Shown here: piece after piece, positions 1 to 52,400 of the stretch | How the letters are laid out: every line of letters begins with the position of its first letter | Numbering within the stretch: position 1 is the stretch's first letter | Source of the DNA: Diphasiastrum complanatum | Lineage: Eukaryota; Streptophyta; Lycopodiopsida; Lycopodiales; Lycopodiaceae | NCBI GenBank assembly: GCA_029204225.1 | Contig: CM055102.1 | Location: 12,599,484 to 12,663,483, forward strand | Direction of reading: 5' to 3' | DNA: 64,000 nucleotides | Made by a program: the position numbers and the translations under genes | Notes under the pieces: model-generated | Told to the model about the DNA's origin: nothing | Database searches by the model: none | What the model saw: only the letters and a program-made list of their open reading frames with translations

Positions 1-480
1 TTAAGGTTTTATTTTAACCTTAAACCGATTTCATAATAATTTTGTGGATTTTTTATAAGATTAGTTTCAAACTTTTTAACACCAATGGTATCAAATCACC
101 CAAATAGCTCAACTACATTAGCTTACAAGTATCAAGGCAAAGCTAAAAGCGAGGGATAGTGTAACATTATGCTTGTAGGGAAAACATGAAACTTCTCCAC
201 ATGTCACTTGGGGAGGCTTCTAATCTTTCGTGGAATTGTATTATCACCTTCGATAGTTTCTTACTATTAGTAGCTGATATTTAAAATTGTTTCTACTGTC
301 GAGTCTCGAGTAGTCACTAGTGAGAAAGAATTGGCTATTAATTCTAAATATGTACATATGAGGATTTCCTTGACTCTTCACACTTGCTCCAGTCATCAAT
401 CATGGAACTAGTGACAGTTGCACCGACGATCTGATTTGCTGCATATATTATCAATATTAATCTGCATATTTAGAATTCTA
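1..480. repeat. Duplicated segment, copy 1 of the CKX upstream block
   Basis: Nearly identical to 23255-23735, with only scattered substitutions. It has no coding potential that I can see. In the second copy this block leads into the CKX promoter region and exon 1. Here it stops after a TTTAGAATTCT sequence and joins directly to DNA that matches the first intron of the other copy. This marks a deletion in copy 1 or, less likely, an insertion in copy 2. Confidence 0.85.
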
Positions 481-1524
481 CCCGGCATGGGGAGACTTAG
501 AAGGTGTTTACTAAGAGTCAAGATATTCTGCAAACACCATGATAATCCTTTTAGTAGCCACCCTTTATGAGTTATTTTGATAAGTTTGTGCTCATGCTAC
601 TATTCAATGTCACTAGGTATGTATATCAATTGTAATGAATACCTAGAATGAGTTACTTTTATGATTGTGTGCTAATGTCACAATATGCATATCATTTCTT
701 AATTGTAGCTTTGGCATAATATGCGAGGATAGAAAAAATGCTTGTTAGGCATAATGGATATCCTATATATAACTTGTTCATTGCGCAAGACATTTTATAA
801 ACAAGTTGTCCATTTTGCATGCAAAATTATTTATCTATAAATAAGTAATCTATTAATAGCCTTTTTTTTTTTTCATACTAATGGATAGCTTATAAACAAA
901 AGGGTGTAATCTTGGCCCATGACTGAAAATATATGCAGAGGCCACACCCTCATCTAATGGTGTAGCAAGTACCGATCAAACAAAAGAGAAGATTATGCAA
1001 CTGTTATACCTTGCTAAAGTATTTGATTAGGATGAGACCGTCCATGCAACCTCGAAGTCATGGTGAGTAAGAAGACCATCCATAAATAAAGTGTCCATTC
1101 TCCAATATGGTCTATAGATAAATTATGCATGTAACAGTTCCATATAGGAGGCCCCTTGCCTTGGGGCCTTCCCAACATAATAATTGTTGATTCTTTTTAA
1201 CAATTTATATATAGAAAGTTTGAAAGGCATTATCCATGCAAGCACTACTTGTCTGACTTTTTAAAAATAGGATGCAGTATCTTATGTTTTCGTAAAGTAA
1301 TTATGACTCTCTACTCAAAAAATAAAAAATCAAGTGAATGACTGTGCCATGTAATGGATGTCACTCAACCAAATACAAATGGAAAAAGAACTTATGATAG
1401 TGTTCATGTAGAGGGGAAGGCCCGAGGCCGAGACCCTTTCCCAACATAAAAGCATCACTAATTTTGGTATTATAGTAAATGTTATATTTTTAGACTTGTT
1501 TCATGGATCTTACATGATTAAGTA

Positions 1525-1559
1525 TAGGGGAAGGCCCAAGCCCCGAGGGCCTTCCCCTA
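1525..1559. repeat. Perfect 13-bp inverted repeat (hairpin)
   Basis: The arms TAGGGGAAGGCCC and GGGCCTTCCCCTA flank a 9-base loop. The partner segment near 28004-28040 keeps the same arms. Related GGAAGGCCC / GGGCCTTCC words occur nearby at about 1162, 1414 and 2382-2440. Confidence 0.85.
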
Positions 1560-2327
1560 CCGTGATAACCAACAGATTTTTTTTTCTTCTAAAAATAGTG
1601 AGTAGCATACCTATGACTTTCTAAAGATAAAAAGTTTGAGATATAAACGAGGCCAAATTTACTAAAAATAATGATAACTACATTATCACACTTTTTAAAA
1701 ATAGCAACTAAATTTTACAAAATTGTACAATGCTTTATGATTGTCTACAAATAGTAATAGTTCCTTACACATTTATTGCTGCATAAATTCATGCGATAAT
1801 GATTTCATATCTAATATTGTGCCATTTAAGGCTTCCTCAAACTACAATACGAAACAAAATTGGAGGTTGTTACGCAATCTTAATGCATTCTATTTATAAC
1901 AGGCAGACCTTGCACATTTGTAAAGTTATTTTCAGCAAGGCATTTTTGTGCACTTAAGAGTTCTGGATGTAAAGAAAAAAATTCAGTGATGCTTTAGGCA
2001 TGCAATTGATAAACTTTTTATTCATAATAAATAAATCTCTTGAACTATGCAATAAACCAGCCTGGCCATTCTATAGTACAAATTCTTCCTCTTATCGTAA
2101 TGCCTTGTGCTCAGGTGTCCTTTGTATTTTGGGACCACCTCCAGGAGCATAATGTCCATCCAATTTTCTCTCTCCTAGTAATCTGTCATTCTCTCTCCTC
2201 TCTCCGATGAAAATCACGTTCTCTGTCCGGTGGAATGCACGTTCTCTCTCCTCTCTCCGGTGGAATGTGTATGTGCTATGTGGCAGCTCGTCTTTGGCTG
2301 TCCACATCCACATTCCCCCACAAACGT

Positions 2328-2353
2328 AAAAAAAAAAAAAAAAAAAAAAAAAA
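2328..2353. repeat. Poly-A tract
   Basis: A run of 26 A. In the second copy (about 28809-28829) the tract is shorter and interrupted by GG. It could be the tail of an old retroposed insert or simple slippage. Confidence 0.8.
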
Positions 2354-2397
2354 CCTTAGCACAATGGTATTACGTAGGGGGGAGGCCCGAAGCCCTT

Positions 2398-2440
2398 GGG
2401 CCTTCCTTGCTGGTCCGGGCTGCCTAAGCAAGGAAGGCCC
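2398..2440. repeat. Perfect 14-bp inverted repeat (hairpin)
   Basis: The arms GGGCCTTCCTTGCT and AGCAAGGAAGGCCC flank a 15-base GC-rich loop. It is kept in the second copy at about 28876-28918. It lies ~70 bases before the putative CKX exon 2, inside intron 1. Confidence 0.85.
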
Positions 2441-2506
2441 TCAGGTGGGCCCCCCCTCCCTTCACTACAACCTTACATGCCTAGTTTCATATTAACTTTC
2501 TTTTAG

Positions 2507-2701
2507 AACAAGAGATAGTAATAGAGAAGTAAAATGGACGATACCTGAATTATATATGGAATTGGCAAGAATAGGAGAGATAGTGATATGCTCCAAACAC
2601 CAACATGCAGATCTCTTCTACTCGGTGTTAGGAGGTCTGGGACAATTCGCTATCATAACTAAAGCCAAAATCCGCCTCCATCATGTTCCTCCTAAGGTAG
2701 T

Positions 2702-2785
<84 letters not shown>

Positions 2786-4036
2786 CTCATATCTCATAAA
2801 ATCTTATATGTCTTTCTACACCTTGAATATGGCTGCTTATTTCTAGGTGAAATGGGTTCGAGCTTACTACTCAGATTTTTTGGCTTTTACGAAAGATCAG
2901 GAGATGCTGATTTCACAAGGAAAGGAGAATTCTTTTGATTATATCGAAGGGTCCGTGTTGGTTAAAGGCAAAGATGTGAATAGCTGGAAGATGGAGTCCC
3001 ATACATTAGAAGATGTGAATTCCAATGTCACGATAGAATCAGATGCTCCAGTCCTTTATTGTCTGGAGCTCACCAAGGCCTATTCTGAGCGTGAATCAAA
3101 CTTGATAGGCAAGGTAATCTGTTGTCATTATCACGTTTAATACAATGATAAGTGTTATTATATTGCAATCACGTTAAGATAAATAACTTTTGATTATTGC
3201 TCCAGTTACAAGCTCTATTCATTTTACGAAAATTTTTAATTCGCTTGTGATCTGCTTAAGCTTCGAGTGACTTGAAATTTTCTTTTGTGCCACGCAGAAG
3301 TTAAATTCATTGTTAGAGCTGCTTCATTATCTTCCATCCGAAATCAGCATCATAGATGCTTCGTATTTGGGCTTTCTCAACAGGGTCCACGACAAGTCAA
3401 GAGATCTCTGAAAGTCAGGTCTCTGGTACACTCCTCACCCGTCATTGAACCTATTCATTCCCAAGAGCCGGATTATAGAGTTTGATGCATGCGTTTTTAA
3501 GCAAAAGTTGAGCGGAGGCATAAACGGACCGATGCTTGTCTATCCCCTGAACCGTAACCAGTAAGTCCTCCATTCAACTATTGTCTTCATTTCTGCATGT
3601 TCTTACTGGGAAATTAAAATTAAATGCAACAAAAGACGAGTCGAGACTGAGATCCAAACATTATCATACTCGTTGATGACAACTAGTGATTGCAGCCCTT
3701 CCTTTGCCACTGTTGTATAGATGGGATTCCCGGATGTCTGCGGTGACACCTAGCGAAGACATCTTCTACGCGGTAGGACTGCTTAGATATGCATCACCAC
3801 ACTCAGCTCCAACAGCAGAAACATTAATGGATCAAAATAGCAAGATTTTATATCTATGCAAAACAAAATCCATCGAGTACAAACAATATCTTCCACACTA
3901 CGTCAATCATGACGAATGGAGAACCCATTTTGACCGTTTGTGGCCTAGATTTCATGAAAGAAAATTGAGGTACGATCCCAAAGCCATTATGTCTCCTGGT
4001 CAACGAATTTTTTGGAGGAGCAAAACTCTTTCCTAA
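2507..4036 (+). pseudogene. CKX: Cytokinin oxidase/dehydrogenase pseudogene, copy A (exons 2-5 only)
   Basis: CKX enzymes are FAD proteins that cleave the side chain of cytokinins. Four exons are visible: 2507-2696 (5' edge uncertain), 2847-3113, 3298-3560 and 3721-4036, all with GT-AG borders and compatible phases. Family signatures in order are VLGGLGQFAIITKAKI, VKWVRAYYSDF, LYCLELTKAY, LNLFIPKSRIIEFDA, GPMLVYPLNRNQWDSRMSAV, YKQYLPHYV, and YDPKAIMSPGQRIF close to the C-terminus. Exon 1, with the FAD-linking GHS motif and signal peptide, is absent from the upstream 2.5 kb. A TGA at 3409-3411 replaces the CGA seen in copy B. The missing exon 1 and the nonsense codon make this a pseudogene. 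The exon 4/5 junction splits a codon (CA|A). Confidence 0.9.
2706..2781. repeat. (TC)38 microsatellite in CKX intron 2
   Basis: A pure TC run starts nine bases after the 5' splice site (AAG|GTAGTG) of the 150-base intron between exons 2 and 3. It is also the pyrimidine-rich part of the intron. The orthologous run in copy B has about 100 TC units. Confidence 0.95.
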
Positions 4037-7589: not shown

Positions 7590-8132
7590 TACCCTCCATG
7601 GGGAGGCTTAGAAGGTGTTTACTAAGAGTCAAGATATTCTGCAAACACCATGATAATCCTTTTAGTAGCCACCCTTTATGAGTTATTTTGATAAGTTTGT
7701 GCTCATGCTACTATTCAATGTCACTAGGTATGCATATCATTTGTAATGAATACCTGGAATGAGTTACTTTTATGATTGTGTGCTAATGTCACAATATGCA
7801 TATCATTTCTTAATTGTAGCTTTGGCATAATATGCTAAAATAGAAAAAATGCTTGTTAGGCATAATGGATATCCTATATATAACTTGTCCATTGCGCAAG
7901 ACATTTTATAAATAAGTTGTCCATTTTGCATGCAAAATTATTTATCTAGAAATAGGTAATCTATTAATAGCCTTTTTTTCATACTAATGGATAGCCTATA
8001 AATAAAAGGGTGTATTCTTGGCCCATGACTGAAAATATATGCAGAGGCTCCACTCTCATCTCATGGTGTACCAAGTACCGATCAAACAAAAGAGAAGATT
8101 ATACAATTGTTATACCTTGCTATTGGATAAAA
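7590..8132. repeat. Intron-1 module, isolated copy next to DNA element T1
   Basis: Same sequence as 481-1015 up to CCTTGCTA. There the two diverge: at 1 kb the module continues AAGTATTTGATTAGG, whereas here the terminal inverted repeat of the DNA element begins within a few bases. This gives an empty-site comparison for the left edge of the element. Confidence 0.7.
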
Positions 8133-8265
8133 TTTCAGCTATGGTGATATTCTGTTAACTATCTGTTTTTTTTTGCAGATCTGCATTAGTAGCTCCTCGG
8201 AATATTAAAGACAATGCTTCACTAGGAACGCCATTGTTCACAATATTGACATACAAATCCACTGA
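8133..8265 (+). repeat. Left terminal inverted repeat of DNA element T1
   Basis: 133 bases starting TTTCAGCTATGGTGATATT and ending AAATCCACTGA. They match the reverse complement of 51501-51633 with about 10 mismatches by eye and no length change. The same left end occurs at 41002-41134. A poly-T tract plus GCAG inside it looks like a 3' splice site. No target-site duplication could be identified. Confidence 0.85.
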
Positions 8266-8348
8266 CCGTATCGTGATGAACAATAGGATTTCAAATGTAA
8301 AGTGTAAAATAGCAGAGTCTTTGATGGTGGACATTCAAAAAAATTTAG

Positions 8349-10056
8349 ATAAGCCTTATAGTTCAGGGTGCTTGTGATTTTGCGGGTATTAGCAGGGAAG
8401 CATATGCAACAATATTTAAAGTAATTAGAAAAGCTTTTAAGCAAGTTCAAATTAGAAAAGTCCTAATCCCTAGGACATATCACTTGAAGAAAGAGGGGGA
8501 TACATTAAACATAGGTATGCATAAGATCACTGGAACTCCATTTCATATTGAGGAGGTGTATGAAATTGATGGAAGATCGATATTCTATAATTCATCAAAC
8601 AATTTATTTGTTGATCTAAATTACTTACTGAGATACATCGTCACATTCTATGATATAACCTGTGAAAAGGTGAATGGCAAAATAATCATAGTACTTAAGT
8701 TAGACGAGTCTGAAACTGTGAAAGGGCATAAGATGGAGAGGGTCAGTATAACTCTCATGAATGGTGTTCTATCACAAACAGAGAACCAAGAAGATTTCAT
8801 ATTCAGTGTCCAGTCAGAAAATGGTATATGGTGGTTGGCAGCGTTTCAGGTAACTAGCCTCATTATTACATTACATTCATTGAATAGTATTAATACATTG
8901 TAAACTAAGTCTGATTAATTCTTCGGATAGGTGTTGAAAGAGGATCATGAGATATTATCACGAATATTCTCAAGGACATCTTATCCTAGGATTATCAAGG
9001 ACCATATGGATGGAGGACTTCTCAATGTTCCAGGAGTTGGAGACTTCAATATTGAATGGCACTTAGCAGGTGATTTGAAAACATTGAAATGTATGTATAA
9101 TGTCTCTCACGGTGCTACATCTAAAACCCTTGTTTGTACTGCATGAAAATGGCAAAAGATGTAACTAGGAGTACAGTAATCAATAGAGAATATGCAGATC
9201 CAAACTGGAAGCCTGTGCTGCCTATCCCCTTAAAAAATGTGCATGTTTGCACTCTTCATGCAGAAATTAGATTAATAGAAAAGATCATTTATCTTCATAT
9301 AGTTTTTGATTGGAATACTAAGCAAGCATCATTAGCAAAGGAAGCTATCTCTCGATTAGAAGATATTTTATCAATAACCGAACTCCATAAAGGACATGTC
9401 AAAATTCAGAAAGATGAAAAGCTTTCAGGAAAGAATGGGAACATGCCAACTAAGCCAAGCATAAGAGGAGCAAAAGCACATCATTTCCTATAATAGCATA
9501 CGGGTGAGGCTTCTAATATTCAACACTCAGTCTGGACAGATATTTTTGCTGCCACTCACGACTTCGAGAAAGACGGCAAAACCAGAGTACTAAAAGTTGA
9601 TGTATGGAAAAAATTTGAAAGTATGATCGCTATTTTAAGAAAAGAAAAATAGTCTGATATTGATAAGAAAGCTGTCCAGAGGACTTGTGTCGAGTTTCTT
9701 AATGCAGTATCAAAAGCATGGGGAGAAGATCAAATCACCCATTACATGGTTAGTATAAAATTTCTAAAATGCTTTCAAATTTTCGTATATATTTAGATCC
9801 AAACATAAGACTAACATTATGATTTTGACATATGCAGCACATACTAAGAGATCATACAGCATTTTTTGCAAATACATATGGAAGCTTGAGTGTATGGTCA
9901 TCACAAGGGATGGAAAAGTCACACCGTCAAGCACGAGCAGCATTTCATTGAAATACACAACATGGAGGAACCAATGAGAAACGAAACTACATTTGTCAAT
10001 TGTTTCAGTGGTTCCACCGTAAAGTTCAGATTCGACAGATAACAAAGTCCACATAA
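8349..10056 (+). pseudogene. Transposase-like gene of DNA element, copy T1
   Basis: At least three exons: 8349-8849, 8931-9748 and 9838-10056, with GT-AG introns in phase. Features in order: AGISREAYATIFKVIRKAF; an acidic strand IIVLKLDESETVKG; WHLAGDLKTLKCMYNVSHGA followed by a CxxC (intact in the other copies); HVCTLHAEIRLIEKI; and in the last exon FFANTYGSLSVWSSQGMEKS. This order resembles, from memory, uncharacterised repeat proteins of cnidarians and other animals with GGDxKFL...CxWC, DxLHxxLR and QQGxEKxN. The role as a transposase is inferred from the terminal inverted repeats. Lesions: a 1-base deletion near 9125, stops at 9491 and 9650-9652, and a TGA in the last exon. Confidence 0.6.
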
Positions 10057-10244
10057 TACAACAAGTTTAGAAAAACATGCAAGTTCATACAAGAAGAGAA
10101 AGTTAGATGATTGTTGAGTAGAAGGTCATCATTGTCATCAAATCATGACATGTTCAGAATTGCATTGCAAATTCATTGAACAAGAGAGGAAAAATACTGA
10201 ATGTAAATGTATTGATTGTATTATACCAAAATACAAAGTGTCAA

Positions 10245-10520
10245 CTATTCATCATAATATTTTGTGTCAAATTCTATGGCAGTATTGTCACGAAGAAATT
10301 TTCTGCTAGCGTATGCATCTAATAGATGTGCATTATCCTTATTTCCACTAAGCTCAATATAAGTTGAATACATTGAATAATGGGAGCTCCTTAAAGGAAT
10401 ATTACCATCAAGAAATCCTAAAATGTTCAAAACATAAGATCTTTTGACAAAAATGATCTTATTTGTCTTAACAAATTTATGTCCTCCTAGGTAAAATGAT
10501 AAAGCTTTAACTGCCATTAT
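10245..10520 (-). pseudogene. Second gene of DNA element, 3' end only (copy T1)
   Basis: A 92-residue open C-terminal segment reads MAVKALSFYLGGHKFVKTNK and ends DTKYYDE before TAG (10245-10247). It matches the last exon of the minus-strand gene in copy T3 (49908 upward), where a small frameshift lies after LNIL. It ends abruptly at about 10520, where Gag sequence of the retroelement array begins. The stop codons of the two convergent genes are about 190 bases apart in both T1 and T3. Confidence 0.6.
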
Positions 10521-12682: not shown

Positions 12683-12763
12683 TAGTTGATAGGGCCAATT
12701 TTGGCATTAGAGGTCAAATAGTCACAGCCCAATTATTGAAATTCATTTTTTAACACTTCAGTT

Positions 12764-13114
12764 CTATTGACCTCCCGAGGTAGTCTTAAACTCCAAAATT
12801 TTTGCTTTCCAATAAGATTTGTAGGTCATTTTTGCTCTTTTCTTTTGTCGATTTGATGATGGATGCAACAATACCCATGAGTTCTTCGTACATTTTGTTG
12901 GCTTCCAGTTATCAGCTTCATCTTTCTCATTGTAAAGAATCACAGACTCGATTGTAGATCTGGATCTCCTTGCCATTGCTATTTTCAAAGCTTGGGCGCC
13001 AAAAATCTCTCTGATATGATACTTAATTTCAATTTTTCGTATCACATTTAATCTAATGTGAATGCCAACATAGTCACAGTTACTGCGTATACCATATTTT
13101 ATGTAATTGTACAT
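12764..13114 (-). other. Antisense ORF starting MARRSRS, unit 1
   Basis: A 116-codon minus-strand frame, identical in unit 2 (17981-18331) and lost at the array border in unit 3. An internal Met begins MARRSRSTIESVILYNEKDE, and the basic end ends KAKILEFKTTSGGQ. About 30 bases upstream of that Met is TATCAGAG (minus strand, 13009-13016), which resembles part of the initiator-tRNA primer-binding site of copia elements. It could be the start of a reversed copia-like element. No known Gag motif is seen. Confidence 0.25.
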
Positions 13115-13464
13115 ACTATATTTCTATAACTGTAACTAGTATAGTTAGAAAATTTCATTATACTAACCAGCATAGTCAAGTAAATTTAACTTGAGGTATT
13201 GACGTCGGGCAGATTAGCATGTGTCGGGTAGAAAGAAAAAACCAATGGGATACGTCCATGCTGCCCGAACACAAATTTCAAAGTTTTCTATATTGCATTT
13301 TTTATTTCTTAGTTAATTTGAACCATGTTACATAGATTTCAAATCTGTGCATTTTGATTGGGCCTGGTGACGGTCGAAACTAAAGAAAAAAATAAAAGTA
13401 TCTTTACAAAGAGTCTTTTTGATATTGATAACTCCTCTAATGCGAGTTTGATTCGCTTATTAAA

Positions 13465-17415: not shown

Positions 17416-18681
17416 TGTTTCTTGATCCTTCAACATTCATAATGCTTCCTATTCAGTTTCTTGTTTCTTGTTGTTGATTTGTAGGATGTATGTAGATTAG
17501 TTTTTAGCTTTCAAGATCTTTTTCCAATTAATTTTTACAACAAGTAGAGTATGAATCTGATAGGTGTTCAATCGGGCTGCATTCTGATCCTAGTTGAGCA
17601 TCATGACTTGCATGTCTTCAAGCAACGTGAGTATAGTTCAAGCATGAAGGAGGTCCGTGTATCCACTGACAAGCTAGATAATCTATACTACAACGCCAAA
17701 CCTTCTGCCTGATTGGGTAATGAACCAAGAATAATAAGTCATTGATACCCGTGAAGCCTGGTAATGGGCAGACATTGAAACGCCAAGTAACAAGGTGCCA
17801 AACTGTAATAGTTAAGTAAGGATTTACTGACTGATAAAGAGAATCAGTGAACACTTTAGGGATGTCATATAGTTTTCTAGTCAAGCATCTTGGTGTCACT
17901 AGTTGATAGGGCCAATTTTGGCATTAGAGGTCAAATAGTCACAGCCCAATTATTGAAATTCATTTTTTAACACTTCAGTTCTATTGACCTCCCGAGGTAG
18001 TCTTAAACTCCAAAATTTTTGCTTTCCAATAAGATTTGTAGGTCATTTTTGCTCTTTTCTTTTGTCGATTTGATGATGGATGCAACAATACCCATGAGTT
18101 CTTCGTACATTTTGTTGGCTTCCAGTTATCAGCTTCATCTTTCTCATTGTAAAGAATCACAGACTCGATTGTAGATCTGGATCTCCTTGCCATTGCTATT
18201 TTCAAAGCTTGGGCGCCAAAAATCTCTCTGATATGATACTTAATTTCAATTTTTCGTATCACATTTAATCTAATGTGAATGCCAACATAGTCACAGTTAC
18301 TGCGTATACCATATTTTATGTAATTGTACATACTATATTTCTATAATTGTAACTAGTATAGTTAGAAAATTTCATTATACTAACCAGCATAGTCAAGTAA
18401 ATTTAACTTGAGGTATTGACGTCGGGCAGATTAGCATGTGTCGGGTAGAAAGAAAAAACCAATGGGATACGTCCATGCTGCCCGAACACAAATTTCAAAG
18501 TTTTCTATATTGCATTTTTTATTTCTTAGTTAATTTGAACCATGTTACATAGATTTCAAATCTGTGCATTTTGATTGGGCCTGGTGACGGTCGAAACTAA
18601 AGAAAAAAATAAAAGTATCTTTACAAAGGGTCTTTTTGATATTGAGAACTCCTCTAATGCGAGTTTGATTCGCTTATTAAA

Positions 18682-19290: not shown

Positions 19291-19470
19291 TCTCTCTCAA
19301 ACATATGTGCACACATGCACTTATAAAGAGAAATATCGATTTGTTTAGTTCTATCTTTGTACGCCGTTCTCCTCGCTTTTTCAATAAGTGCAACTAACAA
19401 TGGCCATTCAATAAATCATGCTAAATACCTCACTACTGGCCAAATGGATCCCAATCTACCTAAACCAGCT

Positions 19471-20503: not shown

Positions 20504-20515
20504 TGAGCAATCAAA

Positions 20516-22628: not shown

Positions 22629-23188
22629 TGTTTCTTGATCCTTCAACATTCATAATGCTTCCTATTCAGTTTCTTGTTTCTTGTTGTTGATTTGTAGGAT
22701 GTATGTAGATTAGTTTTCAGCTTTCAAGATCTTTTTCCAATTAATTTTTACAACAAGTAGAGTATGAATCTGATAGGTGTTCAATCGAGCTGCATTCTGA
22801 TCCTAGTTGAGCATCATGACTTGCATGTCTTCAAGCAACGTGAGTATAGTTCAAGCATGAAGGAGGTCCGTGTATCCACTGACAAGCTAGATAATCTATA
22901 CTACAACGCCAAACCTTCTGCCTGATTGGGTAATGAACCAAGAATAATAAGTCATTGATACCCGTGAAGCCTGGTAATGGGCAGAAATTGAAATGCCAAG
23001 TAACAAGGTGCCAAACTGTAATAGTTAAGTAAGGATTTACTGACTGATAAAGAGAATCAGTGAACACTTTAGGGATGTCATATAGTTTTCTAGTCAAGCA
23101 TCTTGGTGTCACTAGTTGATAGGGCCAATTTTGGCATTAGAGGTCAAATAGTCACAGCCCAATTATTGAAATTCATTTTTTAACACTT

Positions 23189-24695
23189 CATTTTAACTTT
23201 ATAGGTTTTTTATGTGACTCAAAATCAATTGAGTTTAGTTATAAATTTGAGAGTTTAAGGTTTTATTTTAACCTTTTAACGATTTCATAATAATTTTGTG
23301 GATTTTTTAAAAGATTAGTTTCAAACTTTTTAACACCAATGGTATCAAATCACCCCAATAGCTCAACTACATTAGCTTACAAGTATCAAGGCAACGCTAA
23401 AAGCGAGGGATAGCGTAACATTATGCTTGTAGGGAAAACAGGAAACTTCTCCACATGTCACTTGGGGAGGCTTCTAATCTTTCGTGGAATTGTATTATCA
23501 CCTTGGATAGTTTCTTACTATTAATAGCTCATATTTAAAATTGTTTCTACTGTCGAGTCTCGAGTAGTCACTAGTGATAAAGAATTGGCTATTAATTCTA
23601 AATATGTACATATTGCGGATTGCTTTGACTCTTCACACTTGCAGTCATCAATCATGGAACTAGTGACAGTTGCACCGACGATCCGATTTGCTGCATATAT
23701 TATCACTATTAATCTGCATATTTAGAATTCTTTTGCCTCTCGAGTCGTGATAAAGAATTGGTGCATTGTCAATTACAGGTGACGCATTCGCTATTAATTT
23801 TAAATATGTACGTATGAGGATTTCTTTGACTCTTCACACTTGCTCCAGTCATCAATAATGGAAATAGTGACCTGACGATCTGATTTGCTGCATAAGCTCT
23901 GCTTTGATTGTAGGCCGGCTGGAGCAGCCTTCAAAGTTCAAAGGATTGTCTAAATCTTGCTTGCTCCTGTCATCAATGGATTTGATACAAGTTGCAGTGT
24001 CTAAATCTTGCTTGCTCCTGTCGTCAATGGATTAAAGATTTGATACAAGTTGCAGTTTCCCATGATGATGCAGCTCTATGCGTGCATCGTAGGCTCGTAG
24101 CTGCACGGAAATTGAAATAGCCGGGCTTAGAAATTAGTGTTTGCTCGGTCTCCATCACGGATTACAAGTTTCTGAGGTTCTCATGTGTGTCAGAGGCCGG
24201 GACTTTCAGGATTAGTATCTTTTGATGTTGAGGGTGGAGATTGGGTATAGCTGGGAACTTTAGAAGTTGGAAATTTGAACATTGAATCTCCACATCGATC
24301 TTGGAAGCTACGGCCTGCTGGTTAAGGCGTGCACTCCATGTGCACCTGCACTCCCGGCCCTACTCCATCCAGTGATAGCCCTACTGCATCCAATGATAAT
24401 ATATGGCATTAAGAAAAAAACAAAAGATATATTTCCTTGGATGTAATGGGGCCTGTGCGACAGAGGCAGTCTCTAATGAGATCCCAGCCAGGTGCACTTG
24501 CTGTGCACTCTCTAATGAGATCCCAGCCGGCCAGGTCCATGCGTGGTAGGCCCTCGAATATTCCAATTTCGCAGTGCTCCATTAAAGTCCACCAAAGACT
24601 ACAGTTCAGTGTCCTCTATATATCTTGCTGAAGTGTTGCGATCCTTAACACTACCAACGGAATATGTGTTTGAGGAGAGAGCGAGATCGAGATCG

Positions 24696-38100: not shown

Positions 38101-41001
38101 ACTAACACAAAAACCACTATTTTAAGACTATTCATGTTTTTAAATAGAAACTCTCCTCTTATAACTCATCTATTGAATATTAAGAATGTATAACTAATAA
38201 GGTTAAAACTAATGTTGTTATCACATGATAATAATATATACTTCGAGACTATAGGAAATGATTATTTTTATTCCAATAAGGACACAAAAATAAAAATTGA
38301 TCATGATGAGAACCTTATGTGGCAATATAATTCTTACCATCAAGAGTTGACCCTATCTACACAGGCTTCGCTTTATGGTATGCGTGCTCAGATTTCCTAA
38401 AGATGTTGGGCAAAGAACTTCATGCTATGTGTACACATCATTAAACCAATAACATTGTCAAATTTAAAAGATTTTATGTTCTCAAGGATATTGCCCAAAT
38501 ACAGATCCAAAGGGATGTAAAGCTCTAGTCATTAGAGTTTACCTGATGTAAAGACCTAAATTGAAGGTGTTCTACCCTCCATGGGGTGGCTTAGAAGGTG
38601 TTTACTAAGAGTCAAGATATTCTGCAAACACCATGATAATCCTTTTAGTAGCCACCCTTTATGAGTTATTTTGATAAGCTTGTGCTCATGCTACTTTTCA
38701 ATGTCACTAGGTATGGATATCATTTGTAATGAATACCTAGAATGAGTTACTTTTATGATTGTGTGCTAATGTCACAATATGCATATCATTTCTTAATTGT
38801 AGCTTTGGCATAATATGCTAGAATAGAAAAAATGCTTGTTAGTCATAATGGATATCCTATATATAACTTGTCCATTACGCAAGACATTTTATAAATAAGT
38901 TGTCCATTTTGCATGCAAAATTGTTTATCAAAAAATAAGTAATCTATTAATAGCCTTTTTTTTCATACTAATGGATAGCCTATAAATAAAAGGGTGTATT
39001 CTTAGCCCATGACTGAAAATATATGCAGTCATCTAACTATAAAATGTGTCGCAAAAATGATGCCTACGCCAACTAGCTCCGCAGGATCCATCAGTAGGAC
39101 ACTGATCGAGGTTGTCCACATGAACGTCACATTATGGCGCCCATGTGGACGTTGCTATTCGACCGCCATGTGGACGTCACAATCCAGCATCCAACTGTAC
39201 ATTGCATTCGACTACCAAAACCTAACGTGGAACTCCATGTGCACAAGCTAGTTCAACGTGTTTTTGGTGTCTTGGACGTCAAAAAGTGACATGCAATACC
39301 AGTGTCAATTTTGACACCTATTACAGTTTTTGACCGATAAACAGAGTAGCACACCATGTGCTACTATTTTGTTGGAACATGGATAGAAGAAACTCGCAAA
39401 ATTTGCAAAAAATTTACTCTGAAAATATCAAAACCCATCTCGATGCCCATTCTGCATGAACATAAACAAACAATACAAGAATTAACGGTTAGGATTTAAG
39501 TTGAGTACATTCTCTATATTTATAGTGAACAAAAAGTTTATATGTTTCAAAAGAATTGACTATGGAGGATGACCCTCCCTTTTCAATTTATCGACTACTG
39601 GATCAAAGGATTTTCTAAATGCAAAGTCATATACCTCTTTAGTGGGGAGTCATTCGGCATCTATCCATACAATTTAGGACTAACACAAAAACCACTATTT
39701 TGAGACTATTCATGTTTTTAAATAGAAACTCTCCTCTTTTAACTCATCTATTGAATATTAAGAATGTATAACTAATAAGGTTAAAACTAATGTTGTTATC
39801 ACATGATAATAATATATACTTCGAGACAATGAATCTACATTCAATCTGGTTAAGAAGTCTCAAAATATGAATTTACTTAAGAAGTATCAAAATATGACTG
39901 TAGTCTCAATTTAGTTGAATTTGTGCTAACTTCAAGTTTAGGGTTGGAGGTCCCCTTGAAAATCAAGATGCATATTAGAAAAAAAAAATGGCCTATCAAA
40001 TAATATTGGAAGGACAAGCTATTATATAGAGAAATATCGATTTGTTTAGTTCTATCTTTGTACGCCATTCTCCTTGCTTTTTCAATAAGTGCAACTAACA
40101 ATGGCCATTCAATAAATCATGCTAGAAAGCTCATGGGCTGTAAGTGCAAGGCTATAGGAAATGATTATTTTTATTCCAATAAGGACACACAAATAAAAAT
40201 TGATCATGATGCGACAATATATGTGGCAATATAACTCTTACCATCAAGAGTTGACCCTGTCTACACTGGCTTCGCTTTATGGCATGCATGCTCAAATTTC
40301 CTAAAGATGTTCGGCAAAGAACTTCATGCTACGTGTACACATCATTAAACCATTAACATTGTCAAATTTAAAAGATTTTATGTTCTCAAGGATATTGCCC
40401 AAGAACAGATCCAAAGGGATGTAAAACTCTAGTCATTAGAGTTTACCTGATGTAAAGACCTAAATTGAAGGTGTTCTACCCTACATGGGGAGGCTTAGAA
40501 GGTGTTTACTAAGAGTCAAGATATTCTGCAAACACCATGATAATCCTTTTAGTAGCCACCCTTTATGAGTTATTTTGATAAGTTTGTGCTCATGCTACTA
40601 TTCAATGTCACTAGGTATGTATATCAATTGTAATGAATACCTAGAATGAGTTACTTTTATGATTGTGTGCTAATGTCACAATATGCATATCATTTCTTAA
40701 TTGTAGCTTTGGCATAATATGATAGAATAGGAAAAATGCTTGTTAGGCATAATGGATATCCTATATATAACTTGTCCATTGCATAAGACATTTTACAAAT
40801 AAGTTGTCCATTTTATAAATAAGTAATCTATTAATAGCCTTTTATTTTCATACTAATGGATAGCCTATAAATAAAAGGGTGTATTCTTGGCCCATGACTG
40901 AAAATATATGCAGAGGCTCCACTCTCATCTAATGGTATAGCAAGTACCGATCAAACAAAAGAGAAGATTATGCAACTGTTATACCTTGCTATTGGATTTT
41001 A
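35108..41001. repeat. Further duplicated flank and module DNA
   Basis: 35108-37060 is the CKX 3' flank again. 37065-37810 is the CA/GACGTC block, 37811-38050 a stretch missing from copy 1, 38050-38570 the module with the 38212-38400 frame, and 38575-39030 the intron-1 module. 39030-39380 is part of the GACGTC block, 39640-40475 the module again and 40479-41001 the intron-1 module leading to element T2. No genes beyond the short frames already listed. Confidence 0.75.
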
Positions 41002-41134
41002 TTTCAGCTATTCTGATATTCTGTTAACTATCTGTTTTTTTTTGTAGATCTGCATTAGTAGCTCCTCGGAATATTAAAGACAATGCTTCACTAGAAATGT
41101 CATTGGCCACAATATTGACATGCAAAACCACTGA
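41002..41134 (+). repeat. Left terminal inverted repeat of DNA element T2
   Basis: 133 bases matching the left end of T1, with the same upstream sequence (CCTTGCTATTGGAT). T1 and T2 therefore share one insertion event that was later duplicated with its flank. Confidence 0.8.
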
Positions 41135-41214
41135 GCATATCATGATGAACAATATGATTTCAAATGTAAAGTGTAAAATAGCAAAGTCTTTGATGGTGGA
41201 CATTCAAGAACTTT

Positions 41215-42617
41215 TAGATAAGCCTTATAGTTCAGGGTGCTTGTGATTTTGCGGGTATTAGCAGAGAAGCATATGCAACAATATTTAAACTAATTAGAGA
41301 AGCTTTTAAGCAAGTTCAAATTAGAAAAGTCCTAATCCCTAGGACATATCACTTGAAGAAAGAGAGGGATACATTAAACATAGGTATGCATAAGATCACT
41401 GGAACTCCATTTCATATTGAGGAGGTGTATGAAAGTGATGGAAGATCGATATTCTATAATTTATCAAACAATTTATTTGTTGATCTAAATTACTTGCTGA
41501 GATACATCGTCACATTCTATGATATAACCTACAAAAAGGTGAATGGCAAAATAATCATAGTACTTAAGTTAGATGAGTCAGAAACTGTGAAAGGGCAGAA
41601 GATGGAGAGGGTTAGTATAACTCTCATGAATGGTGCTCTATCACAAAAAGAGAACCAAGAAGATTTCAAATTCAGTGTCCAGTCAGAAAATGGTATATGG
41701 TGGTTGGCAGCGTTTCAGGTAACTAGCCTCATTATTACATTACATTCATTGAATAGTATTAATACATTGTAAACTAAGTCTGATTAATTCTTTGGATAGG
41801 TGCTGAAAGAGGATCATGATATATTATCATGGATATTCTCAAGGACATCTTATCCTAGGATCATCAATGAGCATATGGATGGAGGACTTCTCAATGTTCC
41901 ATGAGTTAGAGACTTCAATGTTGAATGGCACCTAGCAGGTGATTTGAAAACATTGAAATGTATGTATAATGTCTCTCACGGTGCTGCATCTAAACACCCT
42001 TGTTTGTACTGCATGAAAATGGCAAAAGATGTAACTAGGAGTACAAGAATTAATAGAGAATATGCAGATCCAAACTGGAAGCCTGTGCTGCCTATCCCCT
42101 TAAAAAATGTGCATGTTTGCACTCTTCATGCAGAAGTTAGATTAATAGAAAAGATCAATATCTTCATGTAGTTTTTGTTTGGAATACTAAGCCAACATCA
42201 TTAGCAAAGGAAGCTATCTCTCGATTAGAAGATGTTTTATCAAAAGCAGGACTCCAAAAAGGACATGTCAAAATTCAAAAAGATGAAAAGCTTTCAAGAA
42301 AGAATGGGAACATGCCAACTAAGCCAAGCATAGGAGGAGCAAAAGCACATCATTTCCTATCAAATCATACGGGTAAGGCTTCTAATATTCGACAGTCAGT
42401 CTGGACAGATATTATTGCTGCCACTCAGGACTTCAAGAAAGACGGCAAAACCAGAGTACTAAAAGTTGATGTATGGAAAACGCTTGATAGTATGATTGCT
42501 ATTTTAAAAAAAGAAAAATAGTCTGATATTGATAAGAAAGCTGTCCAAAGGACTTGTGTCGAGTTTGTTAATGCAGTATCAAAAGCATGGGGAGAAGATC
42601 ACATCACTCATTACATG
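41215..42617 (+). pseudogene. Transposase-like gene of DNA element, copy T2
   Basis: Same gene as at 8349. Exon borders are at 41718/41800 and 42617. The CxxC segment is intact here (SKHPCLYCMKM). The frame is broken by a TGA after LLNVP (about 41903), a frameshift near 42159 and the shared TAG after KKEK (42519-42521). The last exon and the second gene are missing, because the copy ends at about 42658, joined to a CKX exon 5 fragment. Confidence 0.6.
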
Positions 42618-42658
42618 GTTAGTATAAAATTTCTAAAATTCTTTTCATATATATTTAG

Positions 42659-42775
<117 letters not shown>

Positions 42776-47284: not shown

Positions 47285-47550
47285 ATGATTGCTGATCCTC
47301 CAGCTAGATCTTCTGCAAGTTCTCCTACATTGAGAAGATCTACTAGAGAAAAGAGACCATCCATAAAGGCCTTGGAGTTAGGATGGAGGTCTTATTTTGC
47401 CTTAAGTGCATCAATTGATTCAGAGCCTCAAACTTTCAAACAAGCACTTAAAAGTTCACATGCTGAAGAGTGGAAAAAGGCATTAGGCACCATTAGAGGA
47501 GTTCTCAATATCAAAAAGACCCTTCAAGGAATGCCATTTAGGATATAGAA
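47285..47550 (+). pseudogene. Ty1/copia fragment (integrase C-terminus to start of reverse transcriptase)
   Basis: Reads RRSTREKRPSIKALE, then EPQTFKQALKSSHAEEWKKA. This is the linker typical of copia polyproteins: an Arg/Ser-rich end of integrase followed by the E/D-P-x-x-(F/Y)-x-x-A-L...W motif that precedes reverse transcriptase. No further pol sequence follows, and the frame ends at TAG (about 47546-47548). Confidence 0.7.
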
Positions 47551-48216
47551 AAATATTAAAATTAAAAAAACAATATTGTTTATTTGCTTGCCCACACCAC
47601 TCCCAAGGCCTCCCCAACTCCCAATGATCTAACCACAGTGTCTATAGTCCCAGTTAAGAACTGTTAACAGTTCGCAGTATAACTTGACTAAATTCAAAAA
47701 TATTCTCTCCATTGGTTACAAAAAGGGCAGTATTTTCATTAGATCTAGAATATGACCACCATCCCCAAATTCGAATCAGGAAAGAATGCAAAATGTTTAC
47801 ATATGCATTCCTTCCACGAGAATGGAAATATGAGCGCCAACTACCTATTGGAATAAAAAAAATGAGCGGCATTTCCAACTTTGAACCAAGCATACAAGCA
47901 TGGAGATTGGATTGATCGTACATATTATATAATATAATCAAAGATGAGAATTTTATTTTGCTTCATAGAATCTGGTCATAGTACTTTGATGCAACTAATT
48001 ACTCTATTATTTTTTTGATGATGACATTGTATCATCTACATGTGGATATCCCTATGATTTGGCACCTTTGCAGAGAAGAGGAGGCAAAGGAATTCAAATA
48101 TTTGTTGAGGATCGTTCTCGTTACAGGGCAGAAGGAAAAAAAAAACTTGGATTTGTGGATAGATGGAACATTATATCCACAAGATCCAAGCACTTTGACA
48201 CATCCCACATTCTCTT
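47551..48216. other. Stretch without an identified gene, upstream of element T3
   Basis: Contains a 67-codon plus-strand frame (47712-47915) and a ~190-base open lead-in (48015-48216) to the T3 gene. Neither has a recognised family. This sequence does not match the 5' part of T1 and T2, so T3 is truncated or rearranged on its left side. Confidence 0.35.
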
Positions 48217-49718
48217 CAATAACTCATATTGAGGAGGTGTATGAAACTGATGGAAGATCGATATTCTATAATTCATCAAACAATTTATTTGTTGATCTAA
48301 ATTACTTGCTGAGATACATTGTCACATTCTATGATATAACCTATGAAAAGGTGAATGGCAAAATAATCATAGTACTTAAGTTAGATGAGTCAGAAATTGT
48401 GAAAGGGCAAAAGATGGAGAGGGTTAGTATAACTCTCATGAATGGTGCTCTATCACAAACAAAGAACCAAGAAGATTTTAGATTCAGTGTCCAGTCAGAA
48501 AATGGTATATGGTGGTTGGCAGTGTTTCAGGTAACTAGCTTCATTATTACATTACATTCATTGGACAGGTGCTGATTTATTCTTTGGACAGGTGCTGAAA
48601 GAGGATCATGATATATTATCATGGATATTCTCGAGGACATTTTATCATAGGATCATCAAGGACCATATGGATGGAGGACTTCTCAATGTTCCAGGAGTTG
48701 GAGACTTCAGTGTTGAATGGCACTTAGCAGGTGATTTAAAAACATTAAAATGTATGTATAATGTCTCTCATGGTGCTACATCTAAACACCCTTGTTTGTA
48801 CTGCATGAAAATGGCAAAAGATGTAACTAGGAGTACAATAATTAATAGAGAATATGCATATCCAAACTGGAAGCCTGTGCTGTCTATTCCCTAAAAAAAT
48901 GTGCATGTTTGCACTCCTCATGCAGAAGTTAGATTAATAGAAAAGATCATATATCTTCATATAGTTTTTGCTTGGAATACTAAACAAGCATCTTTGGCAA
49001 AAGAAGCTATCTCTCGATTAGAAGATGTTTTCTCAAAAGCAGGACTCCATAAAGGACATGTTAAAATTCAAAAAGATGAAAAGATTTCAGGAAAGAATGG
49101 GAACATGCCAACTAAGCCAAGCATAGGAGGAGCAAAGGCACGTCATTTCCTATCAAATCATACAAGTAAGGCTTCTAACATTCAACACTCAGTCTGGACA
49201 GATATTATTGCTGCCACTCAGGACTTCGAGAAAGACGATAAAACCACAGTACTAAAAGTTGATGTATGGAAAAAGCTTGATAGTATGATTGCTATTTTAA
49301 GAAAAGAAAAATAGTCTGATATTGATAAGAAAGTTGTCCAAAGGGCTTGTGTCGAGTTTGTTAATGTAGTATCAAAAGCATGGGGAGAAGATCACATCAC
49401 TCATTACATGGTTAGTATAAAATTTCTAAAATGCTTTCAAATTTTCATATATATTTAGATCCAAACATAAGACTAACATTATGATTTTGTCATATGCAGC
49501 ACATACTAAGATATCATATAGCATTTTTTGCAAATACATATGGAAGGTTGAGTGTATGGTCATCACTAGGGATGGAGAAGTCACACTGGCAAGCATGAGC
49601 AGCATTTCATCAAAATCCACAACATGGAGGAACCAATGAGAAATCAAACTACACTTTTCAATTGTTTCAGTGGTTCCACCACAGAGTTCAGATTTGACAT
49701 ATAACAAAGTCCACATAA
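48217..49718 (+). pseudogene. Transposase-like gene of DNA element, copy T3
   Basis: Exons at 48217-48530, 48592-49410 and 49500-49718, with the same GT-AG introns as T1. The intron at 48531-48591 is shorter (61 bases against 81). The CxxC segment is intact (HPCLYC). Lesions: TTA to TAA at 48892-48894, the shared TAG at 49312-49314 and a TGA in the last exon (about 49597). The last exon keeps FFANTYGRLSVWSS and AAFHQNPQHGGTNEK. The 5' third (AGISREAY region) and the left terminal repeat are missing. Confidence 0.6.
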
Positions 49719-49907
49719 TACAACAAGTTTAGAAAAGCATGCAAGTTCATACAAGAAGAGAAAGTTAGATAATTGTTGAGTAGAAGATCATCATTGTCAT
49801 CAAATCATGACATGTTCAGAATTGCTTTGCAAATTCATTGAACAAGAGACGAAAAATACTCAATGTAAATGTATTGATTATATTATACCAAAATACAAAG
49901 TGTCAAC

Positions 49908-51410
49908 TATTCATCATAAGATCTTGTGTCAAATTCTATGGCAGTATTGTCACAAAGAAATTCTCTGCTAGCGTATGCATCTAATAGATGTGCATTATCC
50001 TTATTTCCACTAAGCTCAATATAAGTGGAATACATTGAATAATGGGAGCTCCTTAAAGGAACATTCCATTAGTAAAGTCTAAAATGTTCAAAACATAAGA
50101 TCTTTTGACAAAAATGATCTTATTTGTCTTGACAAATTTATGTCCTCCTAGGTAAAATGATAAAGCTTTAACTGCCATTATAAGACTCTCCCCGACTGGG
50201 CTCAGCTTGGAATGAGCAATACAGATCTCATTCCTCGGGAAAGGCCTAAAATAGTGGCCTAGTCCACTATCCCTCTGGAACGAGGATGCGTGTTGTCTGA
50301 AACCACCTCGTCTCGCAGCAAAATCATCTATTATGAGAGAATCTTGCAATAGGAAATATGCTAGCAAAAACACATTCAGTGATTTAAAACATTCTAATGC
50401 AAGAAAGTTTAAAAACTTACAGATTTTTCATCATCATCAGCAACTAGATCAGGATGATCAATATAATGACCACGTACTGAAGTGGAATCATCAGTGAAAT
50501 GCATTAATGATGGACGAGGGCAATTTTTCTGGGATTGAAATGTTGTGAATTCTTCATCGGATGGTCTGCCTCACCCATCCTCATCTATATTTGATAAAGT
50601 CTTAGTCAGGCATTCTTCACCGGTCATAAGTCCCTCCTCATCATCAAAACCAATACTAGCAACAAGGTCATCTGTTTCAAAATCTACAAAGTCGGAGAAT
50701 TCAAAAATTGTGCCAGATAATAAACTTAGAACCTCGTCTTCATGATAGTCAGCAAATTTACATAAATCAACAGTAGTAAAATATACATCGTTAGTAATAT
50801 AATGTACAAAAAAATTGAAAAGACATTTCGACTCCTCTATAGGGTTGGATTCATGATCAGATGTATTTTGGCCAACAAAAGAATCCCGGAGAACATCAGT
50901 ATTTACATCAATAAAGTCACTTTCCTTATCAGGAGTGTCGATAAGAAAGTGACTGATATCCTTAATAGTTGACTGAACAGAGGATGATGCAAAAGGAAGG
51001 TCAACAACAGAAACCTCCTCATCATCTGGGATCTGAACTAGCAGGAAAAGTATGAAACCACTCTGATATTCAACCAATTGACATTTCTTGTTGCAATACG
51101 GACACATTGAACTGCTTTTGAAAAGATCAAACAATTTGGTGAACATTCTATCCAGTCTATGTCGGAAATGAACAAGATCAGTATAATGCATGTACTGGAG
51201 TGGACCTATGGAGAAAACAAGCTTACTAAAGATATCTCTAAATCTAACATAATGTTCATAAAATACGTTAGAATTTGGTTGTGCAGTACTCAAAACATGT
51301 CGATATGGCCTGAATAGGCTGTGGAAGTAGTCTAGGTTTTCAGTAGTCCCAAATTCACTAAGAAATGATCTCAAGCCTGAATCTCATGAGGATCCTAGGG
51401 AAGAGGCCAT
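49908..51410 (-). pseudogene. Second gene of DNA element, copy T3
   Basis: The minus-strand gene starts at ATG 51410 (MASSLGSS, then TGA at 51384-51386, then DSGLRSFLSEFGT). The first exon runs to a donor at 50420/50421 (330 codons, two internal TGA codons, the second at 50571-50573). It holds FHSLFRPYRHVLSTAQPNSN, a CPYCNKKC cysteine motif (residues ~103-110) and a long acidic middle. The second exon (about 50370 down to 49908; acceptor not assigned) reads RDSGLGHYFRPFPRNEICIA and MAVKALSFYLGGHKFV, with a frameshift after LNIL. I recognise no family. The gene faces the transposase-like gene tail to tail and starts near the right terminal repeat, so it is probably an accessory protein of the element. 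Confidence 0.55.
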
Positions 51411-51500
51411 GGCAGTAACGTGAATATCACACTTGTGTGCGAGGGATAACTGAAAAAAAACTAACTATCAAGATGGCGCACAAGAGGGATATGTATACAC

Positions 51501-51633
51501 TCAGTGGATTTGCAAGTCAATATTGTGCCCAATGACATTCCTAGTGAAGCATTGTCTTTAATATTCTGAGGAGCTACTAATGCAGATCTGCAAAACAAAA
51601 CAAATAGTTAACAAAATATCACCATAGCTGAAA
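51501..51633 (-). repeat. Right terminal inverted repeat of DNA element T3
   Basis: The reverse complement matches the left ends at 8133-8265 and 41002-41134 along their full 133 bases. Most of the differences are transitions. Read on the minus strand it ends ~90 bases upstream of the ATG of the second gene. Confidence 0.85.
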
Positions 51634-51674
51634 GAAAGGGCAAAGGAAGAGTGACTCTTGGGAAGATTCAAGGC

Positions 51675-52400
51675 ATGGATCTTACATCTCTTCATCAACT
51701 CAAAGGATGCTATGATTGTGGTGGAGAGTTCATGCATGATCAAGATGGCAAAAGGTTGGATGAAGAAGACTACATGGAGCAACTCAAGTGGCAATTTCTT
51801 CAAGGCAAGGAAGATCTCATTGGTGAGCTCATTGAGGTTTGGTTTGAACTCAAATGGGCTGGTTTGATTAGGTTTGATACTCAACTTCATCTACTCTACT
51901 TCATGTTGGATAGAATTGTAGAAATCTATCTTTTGGTTTATGATGGTGACATTGTTTTCACTAACTATAGTGAAAGGTTGAAATCAAGCAATGATGAGAT
52001 CTTGTGGGATGTTAATTATGTGTTTGAGAGAGAGTATCTTCAGAGGTTCAGATCTGAAGATGTTTATAGATGCAAAGTCCTTGATGTTTTATTGAAAGAT
52101 CAAGATGTTGATCTTCATCAACACCAAGAGGCAAGTAACAATTGGAAGCTCGTCAAAAGCATCAAAGGGGAGCCACATGGGCAAAGCATTTTGGATATGT
52201 TTTTACAGGTTCTTGAAGGTTCAAGTAAGGTCCTTGGAGCAACAAGAAAGTGTCCTTTTACTCTACCTTACTTGTTTAATCTCATGTATGAACATTGTCA
52301 TGTCAATGTGTTGGAATTGTCAAAATTCAATGAAACTAGTTCCATAGTTTTGCATCCTTTGGATCTTGGAGATGGAATAGTTATCATTGCTGGTTTTTAA
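51675..52400 (+). CDS. ORF of unknown family, ~241 codons, upstream of an LTR-like region
   Basis: The first ATG in the open frame is 51675; the frame is open from at least 51651, only 18 bases after element T3. The protein is acidic. It starts MDLTSLHQLKGCYDCGGEF (a CxxC) and contains QLKWQFLQGKEDLIGELIEV and ILWDVNYVFEREYLQRF, ending near HPLDLGDGIVIIAGF. No domain is recognised and there is no signal peptide. It is the longest undisrupted non-transposon-core frame in the window. A likely 3' LTR begins 490 bases downstream, so it may be an extra ORF near the 3' end of an LTR retrotransposon whose upstream part is missing. It could also be the surviving part of a longer protein. Confidence 0.4.
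   Translation: MDLTSLHQLKGCYDCGGEFMHDQDGKRLDEEDYMEQLKWQFLQGKEDLIGELIEVWFELKWAGLIRFDTQLHLLYFMLDRIVEIYLLVYDGDIVFTNYSERLKSSNDEILWDVNYVFEREYLQRFRSEDVYRCKVLDVLLKDQDVDLHQHQEASNNWKLVKSIKGEPHGQSILDMFLQVLEGSSKVLGATRKCPFTLPYLFNLMYEHCHVNVLELSKFNETSSIVLHPLDLGDGIVIIAGF

Follow-up and report, generated by a model that had tools for sequence, protein, structure and literature searches.

The question raised by this locus is what kind of repeat occupies positions 48217-51633 of a 64,000-nucleotide stretch of the Diphasiastrum complanatum genome (assembly GCA_029204225.1, contig CM055102.1, 12,599,484 to 12,663,483), which we call the window. An earlier note, made from the letters alone, had taken it for one of three damaged copies (here A, B and C, beginning at 8133, 41002 and 48217) of a two-gene DNA element of ~3.8 kb with 133-bp terminal inverted repeats. 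Comparison with the whole genome has led us to a different answer. It is likely that they are the broken remains of a plant DNA transposon present in many copies and ~8.8–9.0 kb long, which has 35-bp ends, carries a candidate DDE (Asp-Asp-Glu) transposase, a histone H3-like gene and two further genes, and moves by the mechanism proposed below. The element, histone gene included, probably represents a new family of plant transposons.

The inverse match behind the 133-bp claim does exist. In the window, the inverse of 51495-51637 is matched by 8133-8271 and 40998-41140 at 90–91% identity, and over the 133 bases the left ends of copies A and B differ from the inverted right end of copy C by 10 and 11 mismatches, respectively. 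We have searched the genome (1,744,706,496 bases in 5176 contigs, 1.74 Gb) with the 133-bp sequence and obtained 1433 first-look candidates, of which 40 were scored, all of them 96–100% identical. The best 20 of those 40 sites besides the window's own were then fetched with ~5 kb on either side. In 18 of the 20, homology with copy L016 continues outward beyond the segment, that is, beyond the TTTCAG used as position 0 of the gene coordinates, for 1.1–1.2 kb or more and mostly to about -1199. These 18 represent 14 different sites (L011 and L017 repeat L016, L013 repeats L019, and L027 repeats L012, flanks included), while the remaining two, L009 and L010, are near-identical copies of copy C's own locus. 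None of the 20 fetched sites has an inverted second copy of the segment within ~5 kb. In this genome-wide alignment, a check that the earlier note had itself proposed, the inverted 133-bp ends are thus not the boundaries of a repeated unit, and the 133-bp segment lies inside the repeat, not at its terminus. The inverted repeat is an accident: copy C has lost an internal stretch, part of which now lies inverted at its broken right side, and the apparent terminal repeat at 51495-51633 is a displaced piece of what the deletion removed. This case shows that an inverted internal fragment can be mistaken for a terminal inverted repeat.

Two assignments based on the edge of the 133-bp sequence were considered and given up. 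A hAT-like CAG end read at its start was dropped, since that edge is internal, and IS3EU, which had been suggested by a TATGG near the outer edge, was rejected both for this reason and because the IS3EU transposase is described as integrase-like (PMC10045372).

Where, then, does the element end? The sequence CATTAGAGG.. marks the left homology edge in 16 of the 20 fetched sites and is preceded there by unlike host sequence; by our reading the 16 comprise 12 different insertion sites, the others being duplicates. Three copies, E19, E16 and E22, were extended, and E16 and E22 are closed by the inverted form of the same 35-bp sequence, CATTAGAGGAGTTCTCAATATCAAAAAGACCCTTT, which is the true terminal inverted repeat. 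The right ends match it at 35/35 (E16) and 33/35 (E22) positions, and the left end of E22 at 30/35. The full lengths are 8763 and 9013 bp, respectively, more than twice the ~3.8 kb supposed before. Of ten copies checked, five have the right terminal repeat (E16, E22, L014/L035, L021/L038, and L018/L032, where only 29/35 bases agree); it was not found, where looked for, in E19, L025, L020, L026, and L023. These ends are real, as is the pattern of copies. For copy C, the true left end lies at 47491, not at 48217, formerly its supposed beginning, and there is an internal deletion at 48224-48227.

The junctions of the five two-ended copies, read by eye, show no consistent target-site duplication. 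The flush direct repeats measure 0 (E16), 1 (E22), 1 (L014/L035), 2 (L021/L038, CC, with only four bases of the right flank seen), and 0 bases (L018/L032). E22 lies in an array with a 72-bp period, and its flanks, once joined, match a different part of the array with no gap over 142 nt (95%); this part serves as the empty site. Therefore, the insertion of E22 neither duplicated nor removed bases, unless it did so by whole array units; in this one testable insertion the target is not duplicated. On the right flank of E22 (L022/L031), the reverse strand of the array encodes leucine-rich repeats.

Between the ends there are at least four genes in the extended copies, not two. Their order (Table 1) is identical in E16, E19, and E22, and in E16 and E22 they stand between the same two ends. 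The convergent, intron-containing genes described before are indeed present, as a plus-strand gene with GT-AG introns and a minus-strand gene, and their stop codons (49839-49841 vs 50053-50055) are 211 rather than ~190 bases apart. The plus-strand gene is the transposase candidate. Neither it nor open reading frames 2 and 4 (ORF2, ORF4) gave a Pfam match above the cut-off or a convincing match in the PDB.

The remaining gene encodes a protein with an H3 histone fold as judged by sequence (Pfam Histone, PF00125, 2.4e-23). Its best PDB match is canonical H3 (2.5e-19), followed closely by CENP-A of fission yeast (cnp1, 5e-19), and 46 of 90 aligned columns equal H3.1. The genome gave 7174 first-look candidates for this protein, possibly including ordinary histones; the 150 that were scored are 81–93% identical to the query, all with E<1e-85, and by our count 36 of them have no internal stop. 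All 10 distinct copies whose fetched sequence spans the region carry the gene, elements without it not having been searched for. In addition, L039 and L041, two elements with internal deletions, each have one reading frame that leads from the start of the transposase into the histone and stays open for 416 and 415 codons, respectively.

We have compared the reading frames of this gene among copies. In 20 stop-free copies, the ratio of non-synonymous to synonymous substitution rates (dN/dS) of the fold (86 codons) is 0.24 (0.15–0.38) in frame, and 0.71 and 0.96 off frame. The 20 were taken from the 36 stop-free copies, that is, chosen for lacking stops, with sampled pairwise DNA identities of 0.83–0.95; this choice may lower dN a little, and it should not create a difference between frames. 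Between the most diverged pair of copies, L015 and L023, the fold differs at 7/7/17 sites by codon position (p=0.011), with an amino-acid identity of 0.87 in frame vs 0.72 and 0.77 in the other frames. The C-terminal tail behaves otherwise: the same two copies differ at 18/13/12 sites there, with an identity of 0.66 in frame vs 0.80 and 0.67, and in the 20 stop-free copies its dN/dS is 0.73 in frame vs 0.48 and 0.50 off frame. From these frame comparisons, the fold, and not the tail, looks to have been kept by selection.

Several observations weigh against a histone that works for the element, and they leave room for the view that it is a captured passenger without a role, whose constraint reflects its past as a host gene or our choice of stop-free copies. 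Besides the unconstrained tail, many copies are broken: by our count 114 of the 150 scored copies have stops, and E19, L026, L014, and L020 share one histone stop, so that these four have spread with a broken histone gene. The first 10 copies, which were unselected, gave no signal (in-frame dN/dS 0.58 vs 0.40 and 0.58 off frame); this test was not used further, the fold alone giving 0.40 there without a fold-only control, and the histone signal came from the deeper pairs and the stop-free sample. Capture of H3 by DNA transposons is also on record. In Dothideomycete fungi, a hAT element with a captured histone H3 has been amplified to tens or hundreds of copies; the full-length element is described as ~9.5 kb in P. 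fijiensis, with a hAT transposase domain, 18–20-bp ends and 8-bp duplications, and the captured copies are inactivated by repeat-induced point mutation (RIP), except in P. tritici-repentis (PMC6710886). These elements are the nearest precedent found: they are likewise DNA transposons of similar size with an amplified H3-like gene, whereas the present element has no hAT match and no consistent target duplication, lives in a plant, and has a fold apparently under selection. Among the papers listed from the open-licence literature searched, only the fungal cases were relevant and no plant transposon with a histone gene was found; we claim nothing further from this. Against the passenger view stand the in-frame value of the fold, far below both off-frame controls, the excess of third-position differences between L015 and L023, and a sequence which agrees with H3.1 at only about half of the columns and is much changed yet recognisable as a histone; to these can be added the presence of the gene in all the spanning copies, with the scope given above. 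Overall, we regard a mere passenger as a possibility to be reckoned with, and not as our expectation.

As to where the histone came from, its loop 1 is one residue longer than that of H3, and its E-values to H3 and fission yeast CENP-A are nearly equal in the PDB comparison. The run LLIPRASFYRVVRNIT resembles LLIPAASF.R.VR.IT, which we take to be the plant CENH3 pattern. The longer loop 1 and the LLIP.ASF..VR.IT run point to a putative CENH3 origin, on which the PDB comparison does not decide. The protein is like CENH3 in its histone fold and unlike it in having canonical H3 as best PDB match, in being transposon-borne, and in its long C-terminal tail.

The plus-strand gene is a candidate transposase by the layout of its motifs. 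In the numbering of alignment A3, the candidates read D119-96-D215-20-C235xxC238-203-H441xxxxH446-20-E466, and the CxxC is the only one in the protein. Mouse RAG1 has D600, D708, C727/C730, H937/H942, and E962 (PMC4914335); that is, a spacing of 96/20/203/5/20 in the candidate compares with 108/19/207/5/20 in RAG1. Of 20,000 shuffles, 2 contain the pattern at 15% tolerance and 20 at 25%; the 5% and 10% rows (0 and 1/20,000) cannot be satisfied with D119 (96 vs 108) and are satisfied by another Asp, while the 15% row fits D119. The candidate residues are mostly retained across copies, gaps excluded: the two Asp in 14/15 and 13/14, the first Cys in 15/15, the two His in 12/12 and 11/12, and the Glu in 11/11 (A and B, where both appear, count twice for one insertion). 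There are signs of selection on part of the protein. Exon 2 has a dN/dS of 0.37 (0.29–0.47) over 15 copies, with 0.74 and 0.94 in the other frames, and in the part of exon 2 with the second Asp the variable columns are distributed 71/54/101 over the codon positions (p=0.00025).

On the other hand, the following results count against our overall reading. At E up to 10, Pfam gave only sub-threshold matches with unrelated names; the PDB gave one chance match (0.46), and a profile search none. The Pfam negatives on families lean on what we presume to be the transposase models it holds. The DDE assignment rests on the order and spacing of the motifs because no transposase family matched, and the RAG1 pattern was picked after the sequence had been seen, which weakens the shuffle figure. 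The second Cys is kept in only 11/15 copies. Variable columns by codon position show little sign of it in the exon with the first Asp (23/22/31) and in exon 2 in its later part (43/38/41), and L023 compared with ten other copies over exon 2 gives 75/82/58, with none. For exon 3 (dN/dS 0.53, 0.30–1.03) and ORF4 (0.71, 0.42–1.43) selection is not clear, and the values for ORF2 (0.50) and the 5' exon (0.44) are in-frame values only, with no off-frame control. Finally, a copy intact in all four genes has been neither sought nor shown. One may thus suppose that the plus-strand gene encodes some other protein of the element and that its RAG1-like spacing is due to chance, as the missing family and structure matches would allow. 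The rarity of the pattern among shuffles at 15% tolerance and the retention of the candidate residues speak for a transposase, and we consider the alternative unlikely.

If the plus-strand protein is a DDE transposase, a mechanism can be outlined. It would bind the 35-bp ends, cut the element out and join it to the target with an active site of the RNase H type, which would have a split C2H2 zinc site like that of RAG1, and this joining would proceed without duplication, as in Spy elements; cut-and-paste would be the simplest reading. Damaged copies would be moved in trans. In copies A, B, and C the exon 2 stop EK*SD is common to all three, while E16 and E22 have a Tyr at that position; therefore, the source of the three probably already had this break, and their movement was presumably the work of another copy's enzyme. 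The histone-like protein made by the element would enter nucleosomes and help it by evading silencing or steering insertion, and its selected fold suggests that the element may gain by supplying an H3 variant that acts on chromatin in trans. A bolder version would have a RAG1-type superfamily encode its own selected, centromere-type H3 variant, which marks the DNA of the element or its target chromatin so that it escapes silencing or settles in privileged, e.g. centromeric, chromatin; this we put forward as a speculation with rather low odds of being right.

It may also be asked whether the 9-kb unit is a common composite, in which a transposase-bearing element is nested in, or has recombined with, an independent histone-bearing one. 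There are more candidates for the histone (7174, ordinary histones possibly among them) than for the 133-bp sequence (1433), L039 and L041 are without most transposase exons, and the histone region of L015 and L023 has diverged further from the other copies (DNA identity 87.5% in the fold and 83.9% in the tail) than has ORF4 or, in L023, transposase exon 2 (95%). However, E16, E19, and E22 have the same gene order, in E16 and E22 between the same ends, and L039 and L041 have arisen from this same element by internal deletion, which makes two elements improbable in our view. As for the ~3.8-kb element with two genes, its inverted match is real and two genes do lie between, but with 18 of 20 sites running past the supposed end, 0 of 20 having an inverted second end within ~5 kb, and a common 35-bp inverted repeat at the true ends, this model is already refuted by the genome alignment and keeps virtually no credibility.

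The preferred reading, a single ~9-kb transposon, can be compared with known systems. The earlier note could assign no named superfamily, and none matched here either. With RAG1, the candidate shares the order and spacing of D, D, CxxC, HxxxxH, and E, a likeness of motif layout only; no RAG1 or Transib chain was matched in the PDB at E up to 10, and RAG1/Transib are described with a 5-bp target-site duplication (PMC8355894), in contrast to the CATTAG ends here and to the five two-ended copies, none of which shows a 5-bp duplication (in one, four bases of the right flank were seen). Maize MuDR has two convergent genes, the transposase and one of unknown function, and ~215-bp ends (PMC3440606). 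It is alike in the convergent genes and unlike the present element with its 35-bp ends, four genes, and no consistent target duplication; in the candidate, Pfam found no transposase of the Mutator-like element (MULE) type, and the 4–10-bp duplication given for IS256/MuDR (PMC10045372) is absent from the five two-ended copies. The same copies lack the 8-bp duplication of hAT elements (5–7 bp in some groups; PMC12730594), and Pfam found no hAT transposase domain. CACTA/CMC elements have CAC... termini and 2–3-bp duplications (PMC12730594, PMC1636069), unlike the CATTAG termini here, where a 2-bp match (CC) occurs in one of five pairs (L021/L038) and is not consistent; no Transposase_21-type protein was found by Pfam. 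Of the marks of IS3EU/GingerRoot, namely TA..TA termini, a 6-bp duplication, and an integrase-like transposase (PMC10045372), none was found in the ends, the two-ended copies, or the Pfam search, and the same copies and search showed neither the 8-bp duplication nor the transposase of KDZ (Kyakuja-Dileera-Zisupton; PMC12730594). Spy elements of the PHIS superfamily are described as DNA transposons without target-site duplication (PMC12730594, PMC10045372). The present element resembles them in this respect (one empty site, and four more pairs by eye) and differs in having no PHIS-type transposase by Pfam and in carrying a histone gene. No relatives were found in viral contigs and prokaryote genomes, which says little since these collections hold no plant genomes.

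If these readings hold, the transposase candidate, which sequence searches of Pfam and the PDB do not recognise, may represent a superfamily not yet named, in which a catalytic layout like that of RAG1 goes with the absence of a target duplication. The capture of host genes by transposons is known; a histone whose fold is kept by purifying selection in a multiplying element would make that element the supplier of its own nucleosome component, and it would offer a direct handle on the interplay of transposons and chromatin, including silencing and centromere identity.

Table 1. Genes of the element (first four rows; coordinates relative to TTTCAG = 0) and parts of the element in the window (window coordinates; matches given in E16 coordinates).
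Feature	Position	Strand	Remarks
Transposase candidate	open frames from ~-709	+	
ORF2	open frames 2429-2842 and 2932-3963 (E19)	-	
Histone H3-like gene	open frame 5061-5774 (E19)	+	fold starts upstream at 4875
ORF4	7058-7699 (E19)	-	
Copy C	47491..51495	+	true left end to break at E16 +3653; E16 -464 to +397 missing (deletion at 48224-48227)
Left terminal inverted repeat of copy C	47491..47525	+	34/35 bases
5' exon region, transposase candidate, copy C	47982..48227	+	deletion joins region to later exon
Exon with first catalytic Asp candidate (KLDES)	48224..48530	+	
Exon with second Asp candidate (GDLK) and CxxC	48592..49410	+	in-frame TAA (IP*KN) and TAG (EK*SD)
Exon with HxxxxH and Glu candidate (GMEKSH)	49500..49841	+	stop codon 49839-49841; other in-frame stops
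Minus-strand gene ORF2	50053..51410	-	ATG at 51410; in-frame TGA stops; stop codon 50053-50055
Inverted internal piece (formerly the "right end")	51495..51633	-	E16 0..+137, 97.1%; stretch absent from its proper place in copy C
Copy A, internal part	8123..10520	+	E16 -10..+2323; left cut at -10
Right-end part	12763..13442	+	E16 +6875..+7563; right terminal repeat 13408-13442, 33/35
Tandem-duplicated second right end	17980..18659	+	terminal repeat 18625-18659, 35/35
Copy B	40992..42659	+	duplicate of copy A including flank; E16 -10..+1605

Copy C aligns to E16 in two parts, -1199..-464 with 47491-48227 (93.4%) and 397..3653 with 48224-51495 (89.1%). The reading of its 5' exon, ..LWTDGTLYP.DPSTLTHPTFSS.TH, recurs in the open frame of E16 from -709 to -272. 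ORF2 of this copy is probably split by a putative intron that begins near 50420. Of the three damaged copies described before, all are real broken copies of the repeat. A and B are not independent: they lie in one duplicated block, flank with element (flank 95.4% and element 94.8% identical), and therefore represent one insertion copied with its host. Since both match the family only from -10 inward, they are truncated there. The right-end part at 12763..13442 is probably the continuation of copy A. The window copies lack the histone gene (tblastn, no match at E up to 1e-3).

Copy C's locus is found twice more, at L009 (G000:C449, a small contig; 99.99% over 9.9 kb) and at L010 (G000:C11:13023600, on the same large contig at a distance of ~377 kb; 99.87%), either through recent segmental duplication or as an assembly duplicate. 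To its left, 47253-47287 matches the right terminal repeat in degenerate form (25/35), possibly an older related element adjoining copy C, and is followed by a short copia-like gene fragment up to copy C's left end. Beside the inverted fragment, 51612-52400 holds an open frame of 262 codons without a Pfam match.

Copy A is bordered by a ~1-kb repeat, found at 10519-11511, 16433-17414, and 21646-22627, with a coiled-coil-like frame (MENHVRLIQEKVDKMNF..) and no Pfam match above the cut-off. Its right flank (13443-13453) starts with CGAGTTTGATT, which is similar to AGAGTTTGATT, the empty host site at ~27497, before it diverges; a match of GAGTTTGATT is common to that flank and the empty host site.

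The host sequence of copies A and B is a tandem array of cytokinin dehydrogenase-like units at 1-46413, many of them 92–97% identical, in which deletions are present. The units match Pfam Cytokin-bind (1e-35) and, below threshold, an FAD-binding family. A 5.2-kb tandem duplication within 12198-23190 (12198-17977 vs 17415-23190, 98.9%) is younger than the rest of the array and has doubled the right end of the element. The window also contains Ty1/copia and RT-RNase H fragments, and a CT microsatellite differs in length between two array units, from 2706 and from 29189.

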